Below are positions 19,218 to 29,124 of a DNA stretch of 64,000 bases, piece by piece; positions within the stretch are counted from its first letter, which is position 1, and the number at the start of each line of letters is the position of its first letter. The position numbers were made by a program, and so were the translations under genes. The notes under the pieces were generated by a model. The model made no database searches. It was not told the DNA's origin and saw only the letters and a program-made list of their open reading frames with translations. This DNA is from a virus: IMG/VR virus record IMGVR_UViG_3300030419_001484, positions 1 to 64,000 of that record. One strand, 5' to 3'.

Positions 19218-19650
19218 AACTGCATTTATGTGTCTTGCACTTAACACATATCATGAGGCTAAGAACCAATCAATGATAGGTCAAGTTGCAACTGCACAAG
19301 TGGTTATGAACAGAGTTAAAGATAGTCGATTTCCAAATACAATTTGTGAGGTCGTTAAACAAGGCCCACACAGACCATCTTGGGAAGACCCAAACAAAGA
19401 ATATCCTATTCGACACAAGTGCCAGTTTAGTTGGTACTGTGACGGCAAAAGTGATGAACCAAGAAGAAATAGTAAAGAATGGTTTAAAGCACAAGAGTAT
19501 GCAAGAATAGTTTTATCTGGCAGAATAGTGCTTGATGTTACAGAGGGTGCTACACACTACCATGCAACTTATGTAAGACCAGCATGGGCAAAAACAAAAA
19601 CAAGAACGACTCGAATAGAGTCACATATATTTTATAGGTGGGAGAAGTAA
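19207..19650 (+). CDS. SleB-type cell-wall hydrolase
   Basis: 147 residues of the Hydrolase_2 (SleB) family: an N-terminal Y-H-E-A (Glu17 likely catalytic), A-Q-V-V-M-N-R-V, then C-Q-F-S-W-Y-C and G-A-T-H-Y-H. The family cleaves peptidoglycan. The first 12 residues are hydrophobic, so export or membrane contact is possible. A second lysin of another family lies at 25207. Confidence 0.85.
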   Translation: MLLETAFMCLALNTYHEAKNQSMIGQVATAQVVMNRVKDSRFPNTICEVVKQGPHRPSWEDPNKEYPIRHKCQFSWYCDGKSDEPRRNSKEWFKAQEYARIVLSGRIVLDVTEGATHYHATYVRPAWAKTKTRTTRIESHIFYRWEK

Positions 19651-20231
19651 TGGATAAAGTGATGCCTCTCTTTCATTGCGACTTATTCATAAAAGAAGAT
19701 GTCGGTACTGATGAACAAAGAGAAGATTTAAAGAAACAAATACTTCAAGCGAAAGAAGATAACAGAGGTGGAGTAGGTGGTGGTAATCCAGGCTGTTGGA
19801 GATCAACTGCAACTTATAACATGGATTGGTTATATGAGTCAATGCGAGTATTATCAAACGAAGCAAACAAAATTTATTTTGAGGGTGATAGAGTATTTAA
19901 ATCACTACTTGACAACTGCAACAATAGAGACTATAATATATGGACAAACGTAAATGAAGTAGGTTCAAAGAATGTATTACATACACATACAACAGATGCA
20001 TGGGCTGGTATCTACTATCTTCAAGCAGAGGGAACTGGAAATCTAGTGTTTACAAATCCAGCAAATCTATTATTACAGTGTAATACTAAATCACCTTATA
20101 CAAGAAAAACTGGTATTAAACCAAAAGATGGTATGTTAGTATTGTGGCCAGGTTGGGTGCCACATGAGGTTATGGAAAATAAATCTAACCAACAAAGAAT
20201 AAACTTGGCATGGGGTATAAATTACAACTAA
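19650..20231 (+). CDS. 2OG-Fe(II) oxygenase (TIGR02466-like)
   Basis: 193 residues. Metal region L-H-T-H-T-T-D-A-W-A-G-I-Y-Y (about 110-123), then G-M-L-V-L-W-P-G-W-V-P-H (distal His about 171) and Q-R-I-N-L-A-W. I used the ATG at 19650, which overlaps the upstream stop, rather than GTG at 19638. The product probably hydroxylates an unknown substrate. Confidence 0.8.
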   Translation: MDKVMPLFHCDLFIKEDVGTDEQREDLKKQILQAKEDNRGGVGGGNPGCWRSTATYNMDWLYESMRVLSNEANKIYFEGDRVFKSLLDNCNNRDYNIWTNVNEVGSKNVLHTHTTDAWAGIYYLQAEGTGNLVFTNPANLLLQCNTKSPYTRKTGIKPKDGMLVLWPGWVPHEVMENKSNQQRINLAWGINYN

Positions 20232-20788
20232 TGAATATATTTTATCTACACGAAGATCCAGAAATATCTGCAAAGATGCATTGTGATAAGCACGTTGTCA
20301 AAATGATAATCGAATATGCACAGATGTTATCCACTGCACATAGAATGTTAGATGGAAAACTGACAAAGAAACCAAGTAAGTCTGGTAAGACTATGATTAA
20401 ACATTATGATTTATTTGAGGGTGCAGATGACTTAGAAGCAGAATATACTTACTACAAGGCTGTTCATTATAATCACCCATGTAATATTTGGGTTAGAGAA
20501 TCAAATGAAAATTATCACTATCTTTACAAAATGTTTTATCATTTATGTGAGGAATATCGACATAGGTATGGTAAATTTCATATGACAGATAATAAATTGA
20601 GATCTGCACTATGGACATTTCCTAGAAATATACCCCATAAACCCTTTTCACCACCCCCACAAGCGATGCCAGAGTACTGTAAAAGACCAGACGTAAAGGA
20701 TGCATACAGAACATACTATATAAAAGAGAAGAAAAGTTTTGCAAAGTGGACTAAAAGACAAATTCCATATTGGTTCTGGGCTGCATGA
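20231..20788 (+). CDS. Pyrimidine-dimer glycosylase-family-like protein
   Basis: 185 residues. It begins M-N-I-F-Y-L and continues D-K-H-V-V-K-M-I-I-E-Y-A-Q-M-L-S-T-A-H-R, the pattern of a large phage family related to T4 endonuclease V. N-H-P-C-x-I-W-V-R and P-P-P-Q-A-M-P are also typical. Such proteins are annotated as DNA glycosylases, but activity for this branch is not established here. Start at 20231 overlaps the upstream stop. Confidence 0.65.
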   Translation: MNIFYLHEDPEISAKMHCDKHVVKMIIEYAQMLSTAHRMLDGKLTKKPSKSGKTMIKHYDLFEGADDLEAEYTYYKAVHYNHPCNIWVRESNENYHYLYKMFYHLCEEYRHRYGKFHMTDNKLRSALWTFPRNIPHKPFSPPPQAMPEYCKRPDVKDAYRTYYIKEKKSFAKWTKRQIPYWFWAA

Positions 20789-20795
20789 GGTAAAA

Positions 20796-21386
20796 ATGGA
20801 TAGAGATTGGATAAAAATAGAAAATTTTCTCACTAGAGATATTGCTGATTTACTTTATGGTTATGTGTTACTTGCAGATCGAAGATTAAGAGTTTTAAAA
20901 GAGAATGATATAAATTCTTCATTACCTCATCTTGGAACTATTGGTGATAGTCAATCAGATTGTAATTTTAGTTGTTATGGGGATTTAATTTTTGATACAG
21001 TCCTTTTGGGAAAGGTTACTGAACTACAAAATGTAACAGGACTAGGGCTGATACCACAGTACACATATTACAGATTATATTCAAATGGTTCTGAACTAAA
21101 AAAACATAAGGACAGACCATCATGTGAAATATCTGGTACAATGTGTCTTGGTTATGAATCACATTACAACTGGCCAATATTTTTCACAGATAAAAATGGA
21201 CAAGATATTTCAGTAGAATTAAATCCAGGCGACTTGGTAATGTATAAAGGAACTGAATTGACACACTGGAGAGAACCATTTGAAGGAACTAACCACGCAC
21301 AAGTTTTTCTTCACTACACGAATAAGGATGGACAATATAATGATTACAAATTTGATCATAGAATTGGATTGGGTGTGCAACTGTGA
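20796..21386 (+). CDS. 2OG-Fe(II) oxygenase
   Basis: 196 residues. H-K-D (about 105-107) fits the HxD metal motif, with the distal His in E-L-T-H-W-R-E-P. The segment between them carries L-N-P-G-D-L-V-M-Y, as in P4H-like proteins. A clear 2OG-binding Arg is not certain. Start at 20796. Confidence 0.7.
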   Translation: MDRDWIKIENFLTRDIADLLYGYVLLADRRLRVLKENDINSSLPHLGTIGDSQSDCNFSCYGDLIFDTVLLGKVTELQNVTGLGLIPQYTYYRLYSNGSELKKHKDRPSCEISGTMCLGYESHYNWPIFFTDKNGQDISVELNPGDLVMYKGTELTHWREPFEGTNHAQVFLHYTNKDGQYNDYKFDHRIGLGVQL

Positions 21387-22000
21387 GTAGTGAATTAATA
21401 CCATTTCACGCATTACCTATTTACAAAGAATCAACTGATTTTGTCTTGACAGATGAAGAGAGGTCTGTTATATTGGATGGTGAATTTCGTAAGGCACTAT
21501 CTAAACAAGGTAATGCAATATCAAAAAGTGCAGAGGTATTAGATGATGAAAGATTAGTAAGACTCAAGACACACATACTTACTGTGTTCAATGATTATAT
21601 AACAAATCATTTACAAATAGAAAATCAATTTTATCTTACACAGAGTTGGACAGCAGTGAATCACAAAGGTGATGCACATCACTCACATATACACCCCAAT
21701 ACAGTTTTTAGTTGTGTATATTATGTACAAGCAAATAGTGGTGATTTACAAATTAAGATGCCTGTCAGTAGAATACAAGAGGGATATAATTTATCATATA
21801 AAGTAATACAACAGAATATTTTTAATGCAAGAACAATTAACTTATCAGTAAAAACTGGTGATGTAGTAATCTTTCCAGGCTGGTGTGAACATCAAGCATT
21901 ACCTAATGAAGATGACTCACCAAGAATAATTTTAGGAACAAATTATTTTGTTACAGGTTCGTTTGGTGATTATGATAACAAAGATTTAATACAGATATGA
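21383..22000 (+). CDS. 2OG-Fe(II) oxygenase (TIGR02466-like)
   Basis: 205 residues from a GTG start overlapping the previous stop. Metal region H-H-S-H-I-H-P-N-T-V-F-S-C-V-Y-Y-V, G-D-V-V-I-F-P-G-W-C-E-H (distal His) and P-R-I-I-L-G-T. Standard family length. Substrate unknown. Confidence 0.8.
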   Translation: MSSELIPFHALPIYKESTDFVLTDEERSVILDGEFRKALSKQGNAISKSAEVLDDERLVRLKTHILTVFNDYITNHLQIENQFYLTQSWTAVNHKGDAHHSHIHPNTVFSCVYYVQANSGDLQIKMPVSRIQEGYNLSYKVIQQNIFNARTINLSVKTGDVVIFPGWCEHQALPNEDDSPRIILGTNYFVTGSFGDYDNKDLIQI

Positions 22001-22278
22001 GTGATGAAGAACCAGAGAGATATCACGAATGGATTTTATGGAAATTTAAACAGGAGAAAAAAATGTCTGAAGAACAATTACAACTTAATTTTTTTGATAG
22101 TCCTCATGGTGGTATATCATCATCTGATTCTATAATTAGACGAGAGATGTATGAGATGCAGAAACATATTCATGCATTACAGATTCGTGTTAAAGAACTC
22201 GCAGATGAAAACTATGAACTAAGAAAAAAAATTATACCTGATTTGTCAGACAAAATACCAGAGGTCACTGGAAAATAG
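21997..22278 (+). CDS. Small coiled-coil protein
   Basis: 93 residues with a C-terminal coiled coil (about 48-78). It lies between two oxygenase genes and overlaps the upstream one. An internal ATG at about 22063 after GGAG would give a 71-residue form. Unknown role. Confidence 0.55.
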   Translation: MSDEEPERYHEWILWKFKQEKKMSEEQLQLNFFDSPHGGISSSDSIIRREMYEMQKHIHALQIRVKELADENYELRKKIIPDLSDKIPEVTGK

Positions 22279-22279
22279 A

Positions 22280-22852
22280 ATGAGTTCTAAATTAAATCTA
22301 TTTTTCCCAATACCGATTATGCAAGATACGATTGAATCTGATCTTACAGATTATGTTCTTGATATGGTTGGTTCACAAGAAGGTGTTAAACTATCAAACA
22401 GAGGTGGTTTTCAATCACAACACTTTTTTAAACCAGAGAAAGAGTTTCAAGAACTGTGGGAACAAATAGAGGTGAAATTAAATAAGTTTCATGAAGAAGT
22501 TGCACTCAAGGGTTATGTTCAAATAAATGAATGGTGGTTCAATGTTAATTATAAAGGGTGTATGAACAGACAACATCAACATCCAAATAGTATACACTCT
22601 GGTGTATATTATATAAAAGCACCAGAAAATTGTGGTAATATATGTTTTCCAAACCCAAACCAAACTCTTATGTGGGGTTGGCCTAGTGGTATTACAAAAA
22701 CTTCTAACTCAACTAATTCTGAAATCGCAACTTTAAAACCAGTAAAAAACTTATTATATATATTTCCTAGTTGGACAAATCACTCAGTAGATGCAAACGA
22801 GTCAGATGAACCAAGAATAAGTTTATCATTTAACACAGGATTAATACAATAA
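22280..22852 (+). CDS. 2OG-Fe(II) oxygenase (TIGR02466-like)
   Basis: 190 residues. R-Q-H-Q-H-P-N-S-I-H-S-G-V-Y-Y-I is the clearest family signature in the window, followed by I-F-P-S-W-T-N-H-S-V and P-R-I-S-L-S-F-N. The final base of its stop is shared with the next ATG. Confidence 0.85.
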   Translation: MSSKLNLFFPIPIMQDTIESDLTDYVLDMVGSQEGVKLSNRGGFQSQHFFKPEKEFQELWEQIEVKLNKFHEEVALKGYVQINEWWFNVNYKGCMNRQHQHPNSIHSGVYYIKAPENCGNICFPNPNQTLMWGWPSGITKTSNSTNSEIATLKPVKNLLYIFPSWTNHSVDANESDEPRISLSFNTGLIQ

Positions 22853-23196
22853 TGCCAACATACATACTAAGAAATAAAAAGACACATATAACATATGAAA
22901 TATTCTGTAAGTATCCAGAATTACAAGAGATGTTAGAAAATGACCCAGATCTAGTTCAGATGTTAACTGCACCAGCAATAGTTGGTGACCATATTGTTAA
23001 ACAAGGTGATGGTAGAATGGATGGTGGTATGAAAGAAGTTTTTAGTCGTGTTGCAGAGGCTCACCCCAATAGTCCTCTTGCAGATAGGTTTGGTAGTGGT
23101 CAAACTTCTGCACAAAAGAAAGTGCAAGAGGTAGGAAAAAAACATGGTTTAGTTCGTAAGAGTGGTGGACAAAATATGAGTAAAGTTAAACTATAG
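22852..23196 (+). CDS. Conserved phage protein (M-P-T-Y-x-x-R-N type)
   Basis: 114 residues. The start M-P-T-Y-I-L-R-N-K and L-T-A-P-A-I-V match a phage family related to FmdB-type regulators but without zinc cysteines. The C-terminus is basic and disordered. It may be virion-associated or regulatory; not resolved. Confidence 0.6.
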   Translation: MPTYILRNKKTHITYEIFCKYPELQEMLENDPDLVQMLTAPAIVGDHIVKQGDGRMDGGMKEVFSRVAEAHPNSPLADRFGSGQTSAQKKVQEVGKKHGLVRKSGGQNMSKVKL

Positions 23197-23246
23197 ATAG
23201 ATAATAAATACTACTGTGCAGACTTCAATTTAATTGAGTGTGTACA

Positions 23247-23275
23247 GGGGGAAACCAGTTGGGTCGGTTTCCCCC
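23247..23275. repeat. 10-bp perfect hairpin upstream of phoH
   Basis: GGGGGAAACC (23247-23256) and GGTTTCCCCC (23266-23275) with a 9-base loop, 22 bases before the phoH start. Only a short non-T sequence follows, so termination is uncertain; it could be an attenuator-like or stability element. Confidence 0.7.
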
Positions 23276-23297
23276 ACTATAACGAAATGGAAATATT

Positions 23298-23999
23298 ATG
23301 GCAAAGAAAGATATTACAAATACAGACTTAGTAAAAATAGAACCAATCACAGACAATCAGAAATTAGTATTTGACTCTTATGCAAAAGGTCAACATCAAT
23401 TTATGTTTGGTAGTGCTGGTACAGGAAAAACTTTTGTATCACTTTATCTCGCACTATCAGAAGTGTTAAGAGATGACACCAAGTTTGACAAAGTGGTTTT
23501 GGTTCGTTCACTTATACCAACAAGAGAGATAGGTTTTCTTCCAGGCGATGAAGAGGACAAGGCTGCACTTTATCAAGTACCATATCAGAACATGGTTAAG
23601 TTCATGTTTAAACAAGCAAATGAACAAGCGTTCTCCATGTTATATGATAGGTTAAAACAACAGGGCAGTTTCTATTTCCTATCAACATCATTCCTCAGAG
23701 GTTTGACATTTGATAACTCAATCATCATAGTAGATGAGTGTCAGAACTTAAACTTCCACGAACTTGATACCATAGTGACCAGAGTAGGTCAAGACTCCAA
23801 GATAATGTTCTGTGGTGATTTCATGCAGAGTGATTTATCAAAACTATCTGAGAAAAATGGTCTACATGACTTCCTAAGAATACTTGAGGAGATGGAGGAA
23901 TTTAACTGTGTAGAGTTTAATATAGGTGACATAGTACGTTCTGGTTTTGTAAGAAACTATCTGATACAGAAAACTAAGTTAGGTATCGGAGTAGAATAA
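23298..23999 (+). CDS. phoH: PhoH-like P-loop ATPase
   Basis: 233 residues. Walker A is F-G-S-A-G-T-G-K-T (about 37-45) and Walker B is I-I-V-D-E-C-Q-N (about 146-153), the PhoH family signature (DEAQN-like). S-L-I-P-T-R-E-I-G-F-L-P-G follows the usual pattern. PhoH is widespread in marine phages; it is an ATPase/helicase-like RNA-associated protein in bacteria, and its phage role is unsettled. Confidence 0.92.
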   Translation: MAKKDITNTDLVKIEPITDNQKLVFDSYAKGQHQFMFGSAGTGKTFVSLYLALSEVLRDDTKFDKVVLVRSLIPTREIGFLPGDEEDKAALYQVPYQNMVKFMFKQANEQAFSMLYDRLKQQGSFYFLSTSFLRGLTFDNSIIIVDECQNLNFHELDTIVTRVGQDSKIMFCGDFMQSDLSKLSEKNGLHDFLRILEEMEEFNCVEFNIGDIVRSGFVRNYLIQKTKLGIGVE

Positions 24000-24608
24000 T
24001 TGTTTAAAAGTGAATATTTCTCATCACCCATTTATCATGAGGATAAATCAGAATGGTTGAACAAATTAGATAACTTGTGTGACCCATATATCAAAACTGC
24101 TAGAAGTGAACATCAAATTCAAGACGAAGTTGGTGTGGTTTATCACTCCACTAATTTATACAAAGACCCAGAATTTAATTTTTTCCATGATTATATTTTA
24201 AATAAATCTCACTGGTTATTAGATGACATGGGTTATGATGTTAACCATTACAATCTTATCTTTACTGAAAGTTGGGTACAAGAGTTTTCTTTTAATGGTT
24301 GTGGACATCATTGGTTTCATACTCACTCAAACAATCATGTATCTGGATTTTACTTTTTAAAATCTAGTCCAAAAACTTCTAAACCTATGTTTCAAGATCC
24401 CAGAGTTGCACATGCAGCTTTAAAAATAAAAGAAAAAGATGAGTCAACTATAACAAATTCTAATGACTTTATTCATTATCAAGCACCCAGAGGTACATTT
24501 ATATTTTTTCCAGCATACTTATCTCATTCATATAAAGTAGATCATGGGATAGAACCATTTAGATTTATTCATTTTAATTTAAGAGCAGTAGAAAGATATT
24601 TGAATTGA
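24000..24608 (+). CDS. 2OG-Fe(II) oxygenase (TIGR02466-like)
   Basis: 202 residues starting at a TTG directly after the phoH stop. Metal region H-H-W-F-H-T-H-S-N-N-H-V-S-G-F-Y-F, then T-F-I-F-F-P-A-Y-L-S-H-S and P-F-R-F-I-H-F-N. Probably coupled to phoH translation. Confidence 0.8.
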   Translation: MFKSEYFSSPIYHEDKSEWLNKLDNLCDPYIKTARSEHQIQDEVGVVYHSTNLYKDPEFNFFHDYILNKSHWLLDDMGYDVNHYNLIFTESWVQEFSFNGCGHHWFHTHSNNHVSGFYFLKSSPKTSKPMFQDPRVAHAALKIKEKDESTITNSNDFIHYQAPRGTFIFFPAYLSHSYKVDHGIEPFRFIHFNLRAVERYLN

Positions 24609-25207
24609 TAGGAGTTCGTGCAGTTTTTCAAATACCAATGGCTCATTATGAGAATAAAGAACTTACAAATATTTTGAGTGGGTATATTCTATCAAAAGAA
24701 ACAAAGGGTATAGAGTCTGAAGTTGCAACTGGTATTAAACATAATCTAGTTGAATCAAAATTTGATTTTCTTTATGGTAATGCACTTATTGTTAAAGATA
24801 CTAAAGAATGGATTGATAAATGTTTGAAAGAAACAATCAATACAATTCAAATGGAGGATATAGATTATGATATCACTTATAATGAAAGTTGGTATCATGT
24901 AACAAAAACTAATGGTATGCACGAACCACATATACACCCAAGTTGTAGTTGGTGTGGTATATATTATTTGAAGGCTGGGAATGATGATAGTGGACATACA
25001 GTGTTTGAAAATCCAACAAAATCTACATATATAGATCGTGGAAATTTATTCCTAAATAATATGAGTACAATAAGAATAAAACCACAAGATGGATTATTAG
25101 TTTTGTTTCCATCTTATTTAAGTCACTATCAGGCTTTATACAAGGGAACTGAAGATAGAATAGTAGTAGCATTTAATGCTAGTATAGACAAATTAGGAGA
25201 TAACTAA
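24605..25207 (+). CDS. 2OG-Fe(II) oxygenase (TIGR02466-like)
   Basis: 200 residues, TTG start overlapping the previous stop. M-H-E-P-H-I-H-P-S-C-S-W-C-G-I-Y-Y-L, G-L-L-V-L-F-P-S-Y-L-S-H and D-R-I-V-V-A-F-N give the three motif regions. The C-G-I-Y-Y in place of S-G-V-Y-Y is a minor variation. Confidence 0.82.
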   Translation: MIGVRAVFQIPMAHYENKELTNILSGYILSKETKGIESEVATGIKHNLVESKFDFLYGNALIVKDTKEWIDKCLKETINTIQMEDIDYDITYNESWYHVTKTNGMHEPHIHPSCSWCGIYYLKAGNDDSGHTVFENPTKSTYIDRGNLFLNNMSTIRIKPQDGLLVLFPSYLSHYQALYKGTEDRIVVAFNASIDKLGDN

Positions 25208-25728
25208 TGGAAAAAAATTACCAACAATGTTTAGAGATGATATTACATCACGAAGGTGGATATGTGAATCATCCAGAAGATCCAGGCGGCGCCACAAATC
25301 TAGGCGTAACTTTACGAGTTTACCAAGAATGGATTGGTAGAAAAGTAACTACAGATATGATGGAACGATTACAAGTATCTGATGTTGCACCCATCTATAA
25401 AAAGAATTACTGGAATCGTATAAAGGGTGACCAACTACCATCTGGTCTTGACCTTTGTGTTTTTGATTTTGGAGTGAACGCTGGAACTGGAAGAGCTGCA
25501 AAGTATCTACAAAAAATGGTCGGTGCAACAGCAGATGGTGCGATAGGCCCTGCAACTTTGGCTGCAGTAAATACATATGTGCAACAAGAGGGTCACAAAG
25601 GTGCGATTGAAAAGTATCAAAAAGACCGACTTGCATACTACAAAAAACTGAAACATTTTAAAACATTTGGAAAGGGTTGGACTCGCAGAAACAAAGAAAC
25701 CACTGCAGCTGCAAAGAAGATGATATAA
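25207..25728 (+). CDS. Endolysin, glycoside hydrolase family 108
   Basis: 173 residues. E-G-G-Y-V-N-H-P-E-D-P-G-G-A-T-N with Glu16 is the GH108 (N-acetylmuramidase, ZliS-like) active-site block, and the C-terminal half has the PG-binding_3 pattern (G-A-T-A-D-G-A-I-G-P-A-T). No signal peptide is visible, so it would need a holin. The ATG overlaps the upstream oxygenase stop. Confidence 0.9.
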   Translation: MEKNYQQCLEMILHHEGGYVNHPEDPGGATNLGVTLRVYQEWIGRKVTTDMMERLQVSDVAPIYKKNYWNRIKGDQLPSGLDLCVFDFGVNAGTGRAAKYLQKMVGATADGAIGPATLAAVNTYVQQEGHKGAIEKYQKDRLAYYKKLKHFKTFGKGWTRRNKETTAAAKKMI

Positions 25729-25731
25729 TGA

Positions 25732-26190
25732 ATGTTTCATAATGTTTTGACTAATGATCATGTTAATGAATTAATTGAGATAGGACAATTTGAGGTAAAG
25801 TATTTTAGGTGTAATAATGTATGGGGTCATCAATCCTTTGCAGACATGAATAAAAAATATGCACACATTAAAAGTGTAAGTGACTTAGTAACTATATTAG
25901 AGAGTTTATATAGAATTACATTTAACAAACATTGTGAGGTAATAAAATTATGGTTTAATATTGTGAAACAAGATAGGGAGGGTTACGATTGGCACACTCA
26001 CTCTAATACGACAGCGATATATTATTTATTCAATACAGAAAATTCTGGGACTTTGATAGATAATGAAAAAGTTTATCAAGTAGATAGTATTGACAATTCT
26101 TTATTGTTTTTACAACCTAATATTAAACATAAAACACCAGATTGGAAAGGAAAAGATCGCATAACAATTGCGATAAATTTTAATGATTGA
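25732..26190 (+). CDS. 2OG-Fe(II) oxygenase, short form
   Basis: 152 residues. Y-D-W-H-T-H-S-N-T-T-A-I-Y-Y-L, N-S-L-L-F-L-Q-P-N-I-K-H-K and D-R-I-T-I-A-I-N-F give metal, distal His and Arg sites. It lacks about 40 N-terminal residues compared with neighbours. Confidence 0.75.
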   Translation: MFHNVLTNDHVNELIEIGQFEVKYFRCNNVWGHQSFADMNKKYAHIKSVSDLVTILESLYRITFNKHCEVIKLWFNIVKQDREGYDWHTHSNTTAIYYLFNTENSGTLIDNEKVYQVDSIDNSLLFLQPNIKHKTPDWKGKDRITIAINFND

Positions 26191-26192
26191 TT

Positions 26193-26855
26193 ATGAAAAA
26201 ATTTATACACAAAACTATACATCTTGAAGACCTAAATACCAAAACCATAGATAAAAAAAGGTTCTATGAAACTCCAGAGGGTGAACTGTATCCGTCTATT
26301 ACTACAGTTCTATCCGTAAGGAATAAAAAAGGATTATTTGAATGGCGTAAACGAGTTGGTGATGATGTTGCAAATTATGTTGCAAGAACAGCTGCAAATC
26401 GTGGAACTGCCGTTCATCATATGTGTGAGGACTATTTAAACAATGACTTTGATGAAGAAAAACACAAAAAGAAATTTCTCCCCTACTGCCTTTTCAACCA
26501 GTTACGAAAAGAAACTTTGGACAATGTTGACAATATTCATGCTCAAGAGTGTGGGTTATATTCGGACAAATACAAAGTCGCAGGGCGAGTAGATTGTATC
26601 GCAGAATATAATGGTGAACTTTCCATCATTGATTTCAAGACTTCTTCTAAAGAACGAAGTGATGAGTGGAATGAAAACTATTACATACAAGCATCTGCAT
26701 ACGCAGAGATGTTTGAAGAGCGAACTGGAAAACCGATTGAACAAGTCGTTATTCTGGTTGTTACTGAAGATGGAGTAGTACAAGAGTTTATTAAAAAGAA
26801 ACATGATTACCTACCCATGTTAGAGAATGTTATAGAGGAGTTTAATGGAGTATAA
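26193..26855 (+). CDS. PD-(D/E)XK exonuclease (RecB/Cas4-like)
   Basis: 220 residues. R-G-T-A-V-H-H-M-C-E, then G-R-V-D-C-I-A-E-Y and L-S-I-I-D-F-K-T-S-S show the H, D and DxK residues of the RecB-type nuclease core, with a Q-A-S-A-Y-A-E-M motif after it. Such exonucleases occur in marine T4-like phages and probably act on host DNA or in recombination. Start taken at 26193. Confidence 0.85.
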   Translation: MKKFIHKTIHLEDLNTKTIDKKRFYETPEGELYPSITTVLSVRNKKGLFEWRKRVGDDVANYVARTAANRGTAVHHMCEDYLNNDFDEEKHKKKFLPYCLFNQLRKETLDNVDNIHAQECGLYSDKYKVAGRVDCIAEYNGELSIIDFKTSSKERSDEWNENYYIQASAYAEMFEERTGKPIEQVVILVVTEDGVVQEFIKKKHDYLPMLENVIEEFNGV

Positions 26856-27453
26856 CTTAGATGATTTTATAGGTGTATTTGATGGAGCATTCGATAAAGA
26901 ATATTGTGATAGTTTAATTGATAAGTTTGAGTTTTTATCAAAAATGGGTAAAACTAAAAGTAGGGCAGAGTTTTCTGGTAACCCCCAATTAATTTTAGAC
27001 AACAATATATATTTTGCAATGTCTGACATGACAGATACACAAACAATGGGGTCTAACTTTACTTGGCTTCAAGAATTTAATATAAAAATGTGGGAGTGTT
27101 ATAATATATACACAAAAAAATATGGGACATTAAATAGTGTACAAAGACATCAACTTAACCCAGATGTAAAAATACAAAAAACGAAACCTAGTGAGGGTTA
27201 TCATGTTTGGCATTGTGAGAATGGAAATTTAAGTGATGCATCAAGATTAATACTTGTCATGTTGTATTTAAATGATATTGAAGAGGGTGGAGAAACAGAA
27301 TTTTTATATCAAAGTAGAAGAGTGCAACCAAAAATGGGAAGATTAGTTTTTTGTCCAACATCTTTTACACATACACATAGAGGAAACCCACCACTCAAAG
27401 GAGACAAATATATGTTAAATGGTTGGTTACAATACTATCATGAGATATCATAA
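26845..27453 (+). CDS. Prolyl-4-hydroxylase-like 2OG-Fe(II) oxygenase
   Basis: 202 residues. Y-H-V-W-H-C-E-N contains an HxE metal motif in place of HxD, followed by V-M-L-Y-L-N-D-I-E-E-G-G-E-T-E-F, the classic P4H turn, G-R-L-V-F-C-P-T-S-F-T-H (distal His) and K-Y-M-L-N-G-W. Lys in the last motif replaces the usual Arg/Lys 2OG anchor. The family is known in marine phages. Confidence 0.85.
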   Translation: MEYNLDDFIGVFDGAFDKEYCDSLIDKFEFLSKMGKTKSRAEFSGNPQLILDNNIYFAMSDMTDTQTMGSNFTWLQEFNIKMWECYNIYTKKYGTLNSVQRHQLNPDVKIQKTKPSEGYHVWHCENGNLSDASRLILVMLYLNDIEEGGETEFLYQSRRVQPKMGRLVFCPTSFTHTHRGNPPLKGDKYMLNGWLQYYHEIS

Positions 27454-27707: not shown

Positions 27708-28015
27708 TAACATTAACTGAAAACGCAAAAGAATATCTAACAGATATGGTATCCAAGTCAGATGATACATATGCAAGATTATCTGTCAAGGGTGGTGGTT
27801 GTGCTGGTTTCGAATACAAGTGGGAAACTACAGACACAACCGAAAAAGGAACACTCATAGATGATGTCTTGGTGTTAGATACTATGGCTGAGATGTTTCT
27901 ACTTGGTTGCACTGTGGACTACATAAAAGAATTTGGTGGTTCTTACTTAACAGTTAAGAATCCTAACGCACACTCCTCATGTGGGTGTGGAACAAGTTTC
28001 TCAATTAAGACTTGA
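27704..28015 (+). CDS. A-type Fe-S cluster carrier (IscA/ErpA/HesB family)
   Basis: 103 residues. The three ligand cysteines are Cys33 (G-G-G-C-A-G-F) and Cys93/Cys95 (S-S-C-G-C-G), with family spacing. It would carry Fe-S clusters to apo-proteins. HesB-type genes are known in marine phages. Its stop abuts the tmRNA promoter. A link to the iron-dependent oxygenases is tempting, but those use mononuclear iron. Confidence 0.92.
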   Translation: MITLTENAKEYLTDMVSKSDDTYARLSVKGGGCAGFEYKWETTDTTEKGTLIDDVLVLDTMAEMFLLGCTVDYIKEFGGSYLTVKNPNAHSSCGCGTSFSIKT

Positions 28016-28040
28016 CAAACGGAACGAATCATGTTATAAA
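28012..28040 (+). promoter_or_regulatory. tmRNA promoter with ACGAATCA in the spacer
   Basis: TTGACA (28012-28017), 6 bases, ACGAATCA (28024-28031), 3 bases, TATAAA (28035-28040), with a 17-base spacer. TATAAATA at 28035-28042 also matches the late-promoter octamer, so expression both early and late is possible. Confidence 0.75.
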
Positions 28041-28046
28041 TATAGT

Positions 28047-28110
28047 ATAGTTCGTTGATACGGATTGAAAGATGGACAGGACTTGGGTGCGATACCCAAC
28101 ACCTCCACCA
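28047..28110 (+). ncRNA. ssrA: Permuted tmRNA, acceptor piece (3' half)
   Basis: The segment ends in CACCTCC-ACCA preceded by a T-arm, TTGGG-TGCGATA-CCCAA. The 7-base CACCTCC pairs fully (one G-U) with GGGGGTG at 28405-28411, which starts the coding piece nearly 300 bases downstream. This order, acceptor before coding, is the circularly permuted arrangement known from alphaproteobacteria and some cyanobacteria. The T-loop and the C-C-T-C-C-A-C-C-A end resemble alphaproteobacterial tmRNA. The 5' end is estimated from the promoter. Confidence 0.85.
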
Positions 28111-28250
28111 AACACTCGTCCAGTACAACGCCTTTGTAGTCGTAATGCACATGGTAAATTACTCACGGCAGATCGAACACGAATGGTAAGACATTTTAGG
28201 ATTTATCTGGTGTGGCGACCAGACGAGTACCTCGCTAAAAGGAGATTAAT

Positions 28251-28319
28251 ATGATTTTAGATAATACAATAATGGGGGGTCAAGACGATGAAGAACCCTC
28301 TAGTGCAAACAATAAGTAA
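28251..28319 (+). CDS. Mini-ORF in tmRNA spacer (22 residues)
   Basis: Acidic 22-residue ORF (M-I-L-D-N-T-I-M-G-G) with a good AGGAG ribosome-binding site 6 bases upstream. It overlaps the next small ORF in another frame, suggesting translational coupling. Too short for functional assignment. Confidence 0.4.
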   Translation: MILDNTIMGGQDDEEPSSANNK

Positions 28320-28404
28320 GTGGATGTTTAGAGCCTACATTGCATGGAGCATATGTGCAGACATCATAGTGATAGGTGGTATCATATACCTAATCTTTTT
28401 TTAG
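28288..28404 (+). CDS. Small membrane protein in tmRNA spacer
   Basis: 38 residues with one transmembrane helix (about 18-37) and a basic N-terminal region. Its start lies inside the 22-residue ORF and its TAG ends exactly one base before the tmRNA coding piece. A conserved-looking hydrophobic mini-protein; a holin-like or regulatory role is only speculation. Confidence 0.5.
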   Translation: MKNPLVQTISKWMFRAYIAWSICADIIVIGGIIYLIFF

Positions 28405-28620
28405 GGGGGTGAAATAGGATCGACTGACGTTGAATAGAAAAGTGGAGAACTATCGGTTTACCTCGTATCGGTTAAAAAAACTAAACGCAAACGATGATTT
28501 TGCACCTGTAGATTACGCACTAGCTGCTTAATCGTACTGAGTTCGGTGGGTACTTGGAAACAGAAACCCACCACAGTTTCAGAGTTTCGCTGACGGGCGA
28601 AAACGTGTCGTGCAAGGAAG
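28405..28620 (+). ncRNA. ssrA: Permuted tmRNA, coding piece with tag ORF
   Basis: Starts GGGGGTGAAATAGGATCGAC, the conserved tmRNA 5' acceptor strand and D-like region. The resume codon GCA at 28487 opens a tag read as A-N-D-D-F-A-P-V-D-Y-A-L-A-A with TAA at 28529-28531; the Y-A-L-A-A end is a classic ClpXP degron. A pseudoknot-like region precedes the tag. After it, GGTGGGT/ACCCACC and TTTCGC/GCGAAA hairpins suggest further tmRNA helices. The 3' end is an estimate. Confidence 0.85.
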
Positions 28621-28890
28621 AGATTCTCACCAGAGGGTCGAACTTGATTAGTTAGAGGTGGTACTCAGGCATGGTTGCAGAAATGCGTTGTGTCACATCA
28701 ATCTACCGATTGGAACTAGGTTCTGAAAGTATGAAAGAATGGTATCTTGGTCTTTCAGTTGTAGGTGTTAACCTTAGTCCTACCGACACAAATTAATGAT
28801 GCCTATGCGAATAGGTTCGGTTGAAAAAAATCGGTAAGATCATTAAGGGTCACTACTTAATAAGTGCGTGTGGGGTCATGGTTAACCCCA
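28621..28890 (+). other. Structured non-coding stretch after tmRNA
   Basis: No credible gene. Several perfect stems are visible: CTGAAAG/CTTTCAG, GTAGG/CCTAC, CCTAT-GCGA-ATAGG (a GNRA tetraloop), TTAATGAT/ATCATTAA enclosing that hairpin, and TGTGGGGT/ACCCCACA near 28869-28892. It could be a 3' extension of the tmRNA precursor or a separate small RNA. Confidence 0.5.
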
Positions 28891-28911: not shown

Positions 28912-29124
28912 ATGCAAAATACAAAGACGTTCTCACTTGAGATTGAAAAGATGGCCCAAGAAAAATCCATAACACACATGGATGCAGTTTTAGAATATTG
29001 TAAGACAAAAGAATTAGAACCAGAGTCAGTTACAAGACTCATATCAAAAAGTCTAAAAGATAAGATAGAAGCAAACGCAAGAGATTTGAACTATCTACCC
29101 AATCAAGCAAAGTTACCAATATAG
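28912..29124 (+). CDS. gp33: Late-transcription coactivator (T4 gp33-like)
   Basis: 70 residues. The pattern F-S-L-E-I-E-K-M, Y-C-K-T-K-E-L-E-P-E, L-I-S-K-S-L-K-D-K-I-E-A-N-A matches gp33 proteins of T4-like marine phages, which bind the RNA polymerase beta-flap and link late promoters to the sliding clamp. Start at 28912 has GGAG upstream; the longer reading from 28864 runs into the hairpin. The TATAAATA promoters in this window are its expected targets. Confidence 0.85.
   Translation: MQNTKTFSLEIEKMAQEKSITHMDAVLEYCKTKELEPESVTRLISKSLKDKIEANARDLNYLPNQAKLPI

Follow-up and report, generated by a model that had tools for sequence, protein, structure and literature searches.

The window, a 64,000 nt stretch of a 73,794-base viral record, very probably contains a permuted tmRNA gene of the alphaproteobacterial type, in a T4-like phage of the SAR11 type, whose intervening sequence (IVS) doubles as the messenger of a conserved microprotein. 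Both halves of the tmRNA are intact and covary, the microprotein frame is under selection, its nesting between the halves is fixed and its linkage to tmRNA is tight. The presence of a gene within a tmRNA gene is well supported for dozens of marine viruses. A preliminary description of this DNA had treated the spacer as empty, but its 294 nt carry two overlapping ORFs, one of them a conserved protein gene. In split or permuted RNA genes, the spacer is usually regarded as waste. In this case one RNA would be both tmRNA precursor and message, with a spacer nearly filled by a conserved gene whose signals lie against both cut sites, which raises the question of how translation and tRNA-type processing share one RNA.

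A permuted tmRNA of the alphaproteobacterial type

Two Rfam models matched the locus in cmscan. RF04321 (tmRNA_permuted) covered both halves at 28049-28531 with 100.5 bits (E 2e-18, gathering score 47), and RF01849 (alpha_tmRNA) matched 28008-28575 with 92.8 bits (E 6e-24). With these scores the match is far above chance. All parts of the locus, from the promoter-like stretch to gp33, are located on the plus strand. The acceptor piece, with the T-arm, CACCTCC and the ACCA end, was placed at 28049-28110 by the RF04321 alignment and thus lies 5' of the coding piece, which the RF01849 and RF04321 alignments placed at 28405-28575 and which comprises the 5' acceptor strand GGGGGTG, the tag frame and the 3' structured region. 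The boundaries, 28110 for the end of the acceptor half and 28405 for the GGGGGTG that opens the coding half, are just those read from the sequence in the preliminary description. That description had staked its assignment beforehand on a covariance search with the alpha-tmRNA model, and the match to this model spans both halves. Its reading of a phage-borne, circularly permuted tmRNA of the alphaproteobacterial type was borne out.

The proposed pairing of the two ends over 7 bp (GGGGGTG with CACCTCC, including a G3-U70 wobble) was seen in the cofold of the two mature window pieces. In 214 distinct related tmRNA loci, acceptor pair 6 was C-G in 168, U-A in 45 and mismatched in 1, and hence covaries across the spacer. 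G3-U70 was present in 214 of 214 loci. A G-U at the third acceptor pair is an alanine identity element known from tRNA-Ala. The tag frame at 28487-28531 (GCA-AAC...TAA) starts with the resume codon GCA at 28487-28489 and encodes ANDDFAPVDYALAA followed by a stop, with the degradable C-terminus LAA. By analogy to tmRNA biology, the RNA would be processed into two mature RNAs, charged with alanine and bound by SmpB in the window phage.

The acceptor stem was absent from the predicted fold of the uncut window precursor (probability 0); it was formed in the uncut precursor folds of three typical cassette loci with a spacer of 159 nt and of the close relative L003. ARAGORN called no tmRNA in the window. 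It did call such a gene in close relatives whose spacers are shorter, and the tag of L003 and L004 is also ANDDFAPVDYALAA.

A promoter-like stretch, read from the sequence, was found just 5' of the acceptor piece at 28012-28041 (TTGACA at 28012-28017, a 17-nt spacer, TATAAAT at 28035-28041). The same TTGACA...TATAAAT arrangement occurs in L003, L083 and the phage Melnitz; it is omitted by a stricter promoter pattern that requires T at position 6.

Gene neighbourhood and phage type

The tmRNA gene is surrounded by genes for a PD-(D/E)XK nuclease, an Fe-S biogenesis protein (PF01521), gp33 (PF16805), gp59 and gp32. The gene order PD-(D/E)XK - tmRNA - gp33 - gp59 - gp32 is that of the Melnitz/Mosig type, and the SAR11 phages Mosig and HTVC008M are the closest cultured relatives of the window virus. 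These neighbours and isolates support the earlier assignment to a T4-like phage. The gene for gp33, a late-transcription coactivator, is located at 28912-29124 and is the next gene 3' of the tmRNA and of a manA RNA (RF01745) at 28585-28793, which scored 66.1 bits (gathering score 55.2) and which we take to be a candidate riboswitch of unknown ligand. The manA RNA was present at the same position in L005, L007-L010 and L013 and was absent from the near relatives L003 and L004. In Mosig, a manA RNA is sited elsewhere, before a rubrerythrin gene. Upstream of the tmRNA, a row of paralogous 2OG-Fe(II) oxygenase genes of about 200 aa each (five PF13759, one PF13640) extends from 19638 to 27453.

The spacer contains a conserved microprotein gene

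The IVS, which is predicted to be cut out, comprises the 294 nt between the Rfam-matched halves (28111-28404), compared with 8-100 nt in most relatives with ORF-free spacers. It contains two overlapping ORFs. ORF-A (28251-28319) is a leader ORF of 22 aa (MILDNTIMGGQDDEEPSSANNK) that is preceded by a Shine-Dalgarno (SD) sequence, AAAAGGAG, at 28237-28244, 126 nt 3' of the CCA end. ORF-B (28288-28404) encodes a predicted single-pass membrane microprotein of 38 aa (MKNPLVQTISKWMFRAYIAWSICADIIVIGGIIYLIFF) with a hydrophobic C-terminal half. Its stop codon TAG at 28402-28404 abuts the predicted RNase P site, with the mature 5' end at 28405.

Selection on ORF-B was analyzed in 44 non-redundant copies. 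The median dN/dS in frame was 0.13, and the third codon position was the most variable. For the pooled pN/pS ratio, the correct frame gave 0.23 and the shifted frames gave 1.1 and 2.1; column shuffles yielded values of 0.45-1.08. These codon-phase tests ruled out that the spacer is conserved at the RNA level rather than as a protein. Judged by its codon pattern, ORF-B is a protein gene under purifying selection. No family for ORF-B was found in PHROGs, NCBIfam or PADLOC. The Pfam family DUF2542 (PF10808) reached 18 bits with an E value of 0.004 at a cut-off of 25 bits and was not assigned. Since there was no match among 50,697 phage records, we know of no cultured phage with the microprotein. 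In GTDB genomes, the search for relatives returned only one short, weak partial match.

ORF-A behaved differently. Its frame was open in 32 of 32 loci, and the SD sequence and the start codon were kept; its amino acid sequence was not. The codons that do not overlap with ORF-B showed a pooled dN/dS of about 0.94, that is, no amino acid constraint. Given this ratio and the lack of ORF-A in some loci, a second functional protein was rejected, and ORF-A is most plausibly a leader ORF, which would deliver ribosomes to ORF-B.

The layout of the spacer was compared among 91 IVSs with this cassette, most of which are exactly 159 nt long. The usual order is CCA, SD sequence, leader ORF, microprotein, UGA-U and coding half. 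AAAGGAG followed immediately 3' of CCA in 85 of the 91 spacers, and TGAT immediately preceded GGGGG in 84, which leaves 0-1 nt between the ORF-B stop and the predicted RNase P cut. Among short spacers without ORFs, 33 of 73 also end with TGAT; the stop of ORF-B may thus derive from sequence that was already kept at the cut site. The greater distance between CCA and the SD sequence in the window is explained by an older spacer segment that precedes the cassette and is common to L003. L003, which has an identical gp33, carries the same spacer without the cassette, so that the two form a natural presence/absence pair.

The microprotein is linked to permuted tmRNA genes

Relatives of the microprotein were first seen in the spacers of L013 and L021. 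Scans of IMG/VR by the protein pattern alone resulted in hundreds of copies, of which 68 were distinct after removal of duplicates. Among these, 55 were nested in the IVS of a permuted tmRNA and 2 more were nested on contigs that end upstream (57 nested in total). Eight were located just upstream of a complete tmRNA, 2 had a tmRNA within 1 kb, and for 1 the contig was cut off downstream. All 67 informative copies were therefore linked to a permuted tmRNA. A higher count of nested loci (95 of 119) includes loci that were fetched by tmRNA patterns, and the count from the protein scan (68 copies) was used instead. The Rfam permuted tmRNA model scored above gathering in all of 20 sampled microprotein loci, of which 16 were nested and 4 had the cassette immediately upstream. 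Many relatives have the tmRNA without the microprotein.

In L480 and L482, the pair of ORF-A and ORF-B is located outside any spacer, and a divergent permuted tmRNA lies on the other strand at a distance of 0.5-0.9 kb. The link to tmRNA thus persists without nesting.

Other genes in tmRNA spacers

We also inspected other long IVSs. An SD-led ORF of at least 33 aa with its start within 45 nt of CCA was present in 20 of 50, while dinucleotide shuffling gave 0.6 expected by chance and 3 at most; contigs may share ancestry, and these locus counts are not counts of independent events. The ORFs fall into several unrelated families. A DUF6356 (PF19883) protein is encoded in the IVS of L251 and L344, an 82-aa protein in L459 and L463 has a homolog elsewhere in Mosig, and a 120-aa protein in L011, L012 and L267 has a homolog elsewhere in Melnitz. 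The NEFE family, which is present in the IVS of L266 and L268, was found at 66 loci, 6 of them nested and 51 away from tmRNA. In 11 of 13 other IVS ORFs checked, the stop codon fell within -15 to +13 relative to the mature 5' end. In L243, L262 and L298, whose ORFs belong to separate families, the stop is a conserved TAG inside the mature coding half.

A hydrophobic ORF of 22 aa (MKPYEVIVITLLTILILVHVFF) was seen 3' of CCA in four loci (L420, L369, L391 and L446). In L420 (4083-4468), the surrounding spacer belongs to a permuted tmRNA of the beta type, and the SD sequence of the ORF immediately follows CCA.

The IVS of Melnitz (L472 8097-8261; MZ577097 46096-46260) contains an SD-led ORF, MFKWLSK...PKYLSG (MFKWLSK...PKYLSGTRSVYD), that is unannotated in the record. 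No stop codon precedes the RNase P site in this ORF, which reads through the site in frame, so that cutting would leave a nonstop message.

Proposed function of the locus and alternative explanations

We propose that a single transcript comprises the acceptor piece, ORF-A overlapping ORF-B, and the coding piece. Host RNase P, cutting at 28404/28405, and a 3' end activity at 28110 would release two tmRNA pieces, which would pair via the acceptor stem and be charged with alanine by virtue of G3-U70. Together with host SmpB, this tmRNA would tag stalled products with ANDDFAPVDYALAA. Cutting, charging and tagging are assumed here by analogy to tmRNA biology. The spacer RNA, and with it ORF-B, would be translated while still uncut or after its excision. 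Initiation on ORF-A would in most cases put a ribosome over the CCA end, and termination on ORF-B would put one over the RNase P site. As start and stop are usually adjacent to these cut sites, translation and tmRNA maturation should compete for the same RNA.

Two alternatives would deprive the locus of one of its two products. In the first, the phage would have a normal permuted tmRNA whose long spacer happens to contain an open frame of no significance. Such tmRNAs have been published for marine phages and many IVSs are short and empty, as this reading would expect, but the low dN/dS over 44 divergent copies, the kept SD sequence and start codon and the fixed layout speak against it. The conservation of ORF-B and the codon-phase results already contradict it, and we give it next to no weight. 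The converse, that insertion of the cassette broke the tmRNA and only the microprotein was kept, would agree with the precursor fold of the window, which lacks the acceptor stem. In loci with the cassette, however, both halves, the tag, the resume region and the stem are intact and covarying, and the stem reappears when the cut pieces are cofolded. Decay of the tmRNA is thus very improbable as well, though marginally less so than a meaningless frame.

As to the relationship between the two products, the IVS may simply be a tolerated and well-transcribed site for small phage genes, with no functional relation to the tmRNA and with a packing that reflects genome economy. The several unrelated ORF families in IVSs, some with homologs elsewhere like the 120-aa protein in Melnitz and the 82-aa protein in Mosig, are in line with this explanation, as is NEFE, which is mostly found away from tmRNA and sometimes nested. 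We consider this explanation to have not quite an even chance. It does not account well for the microprotein, which unlike NEFE was linked to tmRNA in every informative copy, even outside the IVS or in divergent orientation. A possible explanation, to which we give somewhat less credence, is that the microprotein cooperates with the phage tmRNA; it might, for instance, modulate a membrane protease or a host factor that acts on tagged proteins, or feed back on maturation through ribosomes on the cut sites. The near-exclusive linkage in nested, upstream and divergent arrangements would fit such a role. So would the positions of the start signals and the stop, which in most loci abut the CCA end and the RNase P site, respectively, and likewise the stops of other IVS ORFs close to the mature 5' end, three of them on a TAG inside the mature tmRNA. 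On the other hand, the tmRNA occurs in many relatives without the microprotein, and the spacing is explicable by compactness alone.

A more far-reaching version, in which tmRNA and microprotein form one module, the spacer is a mini-mRNA, translation and maturation exclude each other and the slot was entered repeatedly by other phage genes, is tentative and in our opinion rather unlikely. If it were true, the transcript would switch between a ribosome-rescue RNA and a membrane protein. The microprotein is a marker tied almost exclusively to phage trans-translation and offers a lead on why lytic marine phages carry tmRNA. There is also a practical side: ARAGORN misses the tmRNA gene of the window, and ORFs like that of Melnitz are left uncalled by annotators.

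Comparison with known tmRNA systems

Permuted tmRNA in a marine T4-like phage is not new as such, with the Methylophilales phage Melnitz and the Pelagibacter phage Mosig as examples. The 2022 description of Melnitz reported a two-piece tmRNA in marine myophages, and in its survey 53 phage tmRNAs, 50 of them marine, were called two-piece (PMC9004378). Like the window, Melnitz and Mosig have an alphaproteobacterial-type permuted tmRNA upstream of gp33 in a T4-like marine myophage. The tag of Melnitz is ANDNYVPVDYALAA. Melnitz has a glutamine riboswitch behind the tmRNA, where the window has the manA RNA. Both isolates lack the microprotein, and the SD-led ORF in the IVS of Melnitz is a different one.

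With bacterial permuted tmRNA (RF04321, RF01849), the window shares the gene order, the acceptor stem, the tag frame and the covariance-model match, while bacterial spacers measure 75-125 bp (PMC2704228), compared with the 294 nt of the window IVS. The largest tmRNA survey, from 2025, comprises 97,179 sequences, 11,946 of them permuted (PMC11915505). As special spacer contents, it lists tRNA-Ala and a repeat element, and its passages on intervening sequences mention no protein gene (PMC11915505). Some tmRNA genes carry a self-splicing group I intron in the T-loop, with a homing endonuclease gene (PMC11915505). Such genes resemble the window in having a protein gene within a tmRNA gene, in a part that is removed from the mature RNA. 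They differ in that the spacer of the window lies between permuted halves and that its product is a small membrane protein which lacks the features of an endonuclease. A tmRNA of the group I intron type was rejected for the window, as the T-loop is continuous in the RF04321 alignment and the spacer is located between CCA and G1. Our literature search, which covered papers accessible without subscription and does not amount to proof, yielded no description of a protein gene within a permuted-tmRNA spacer. As far as could be checked, the arrangement has not been described previously.

A permuted tmRNA is also present in HTVC008M (KC465899; L471 1591-1902), where it has the tag ANFNEYALAA and is unannotated in the record.
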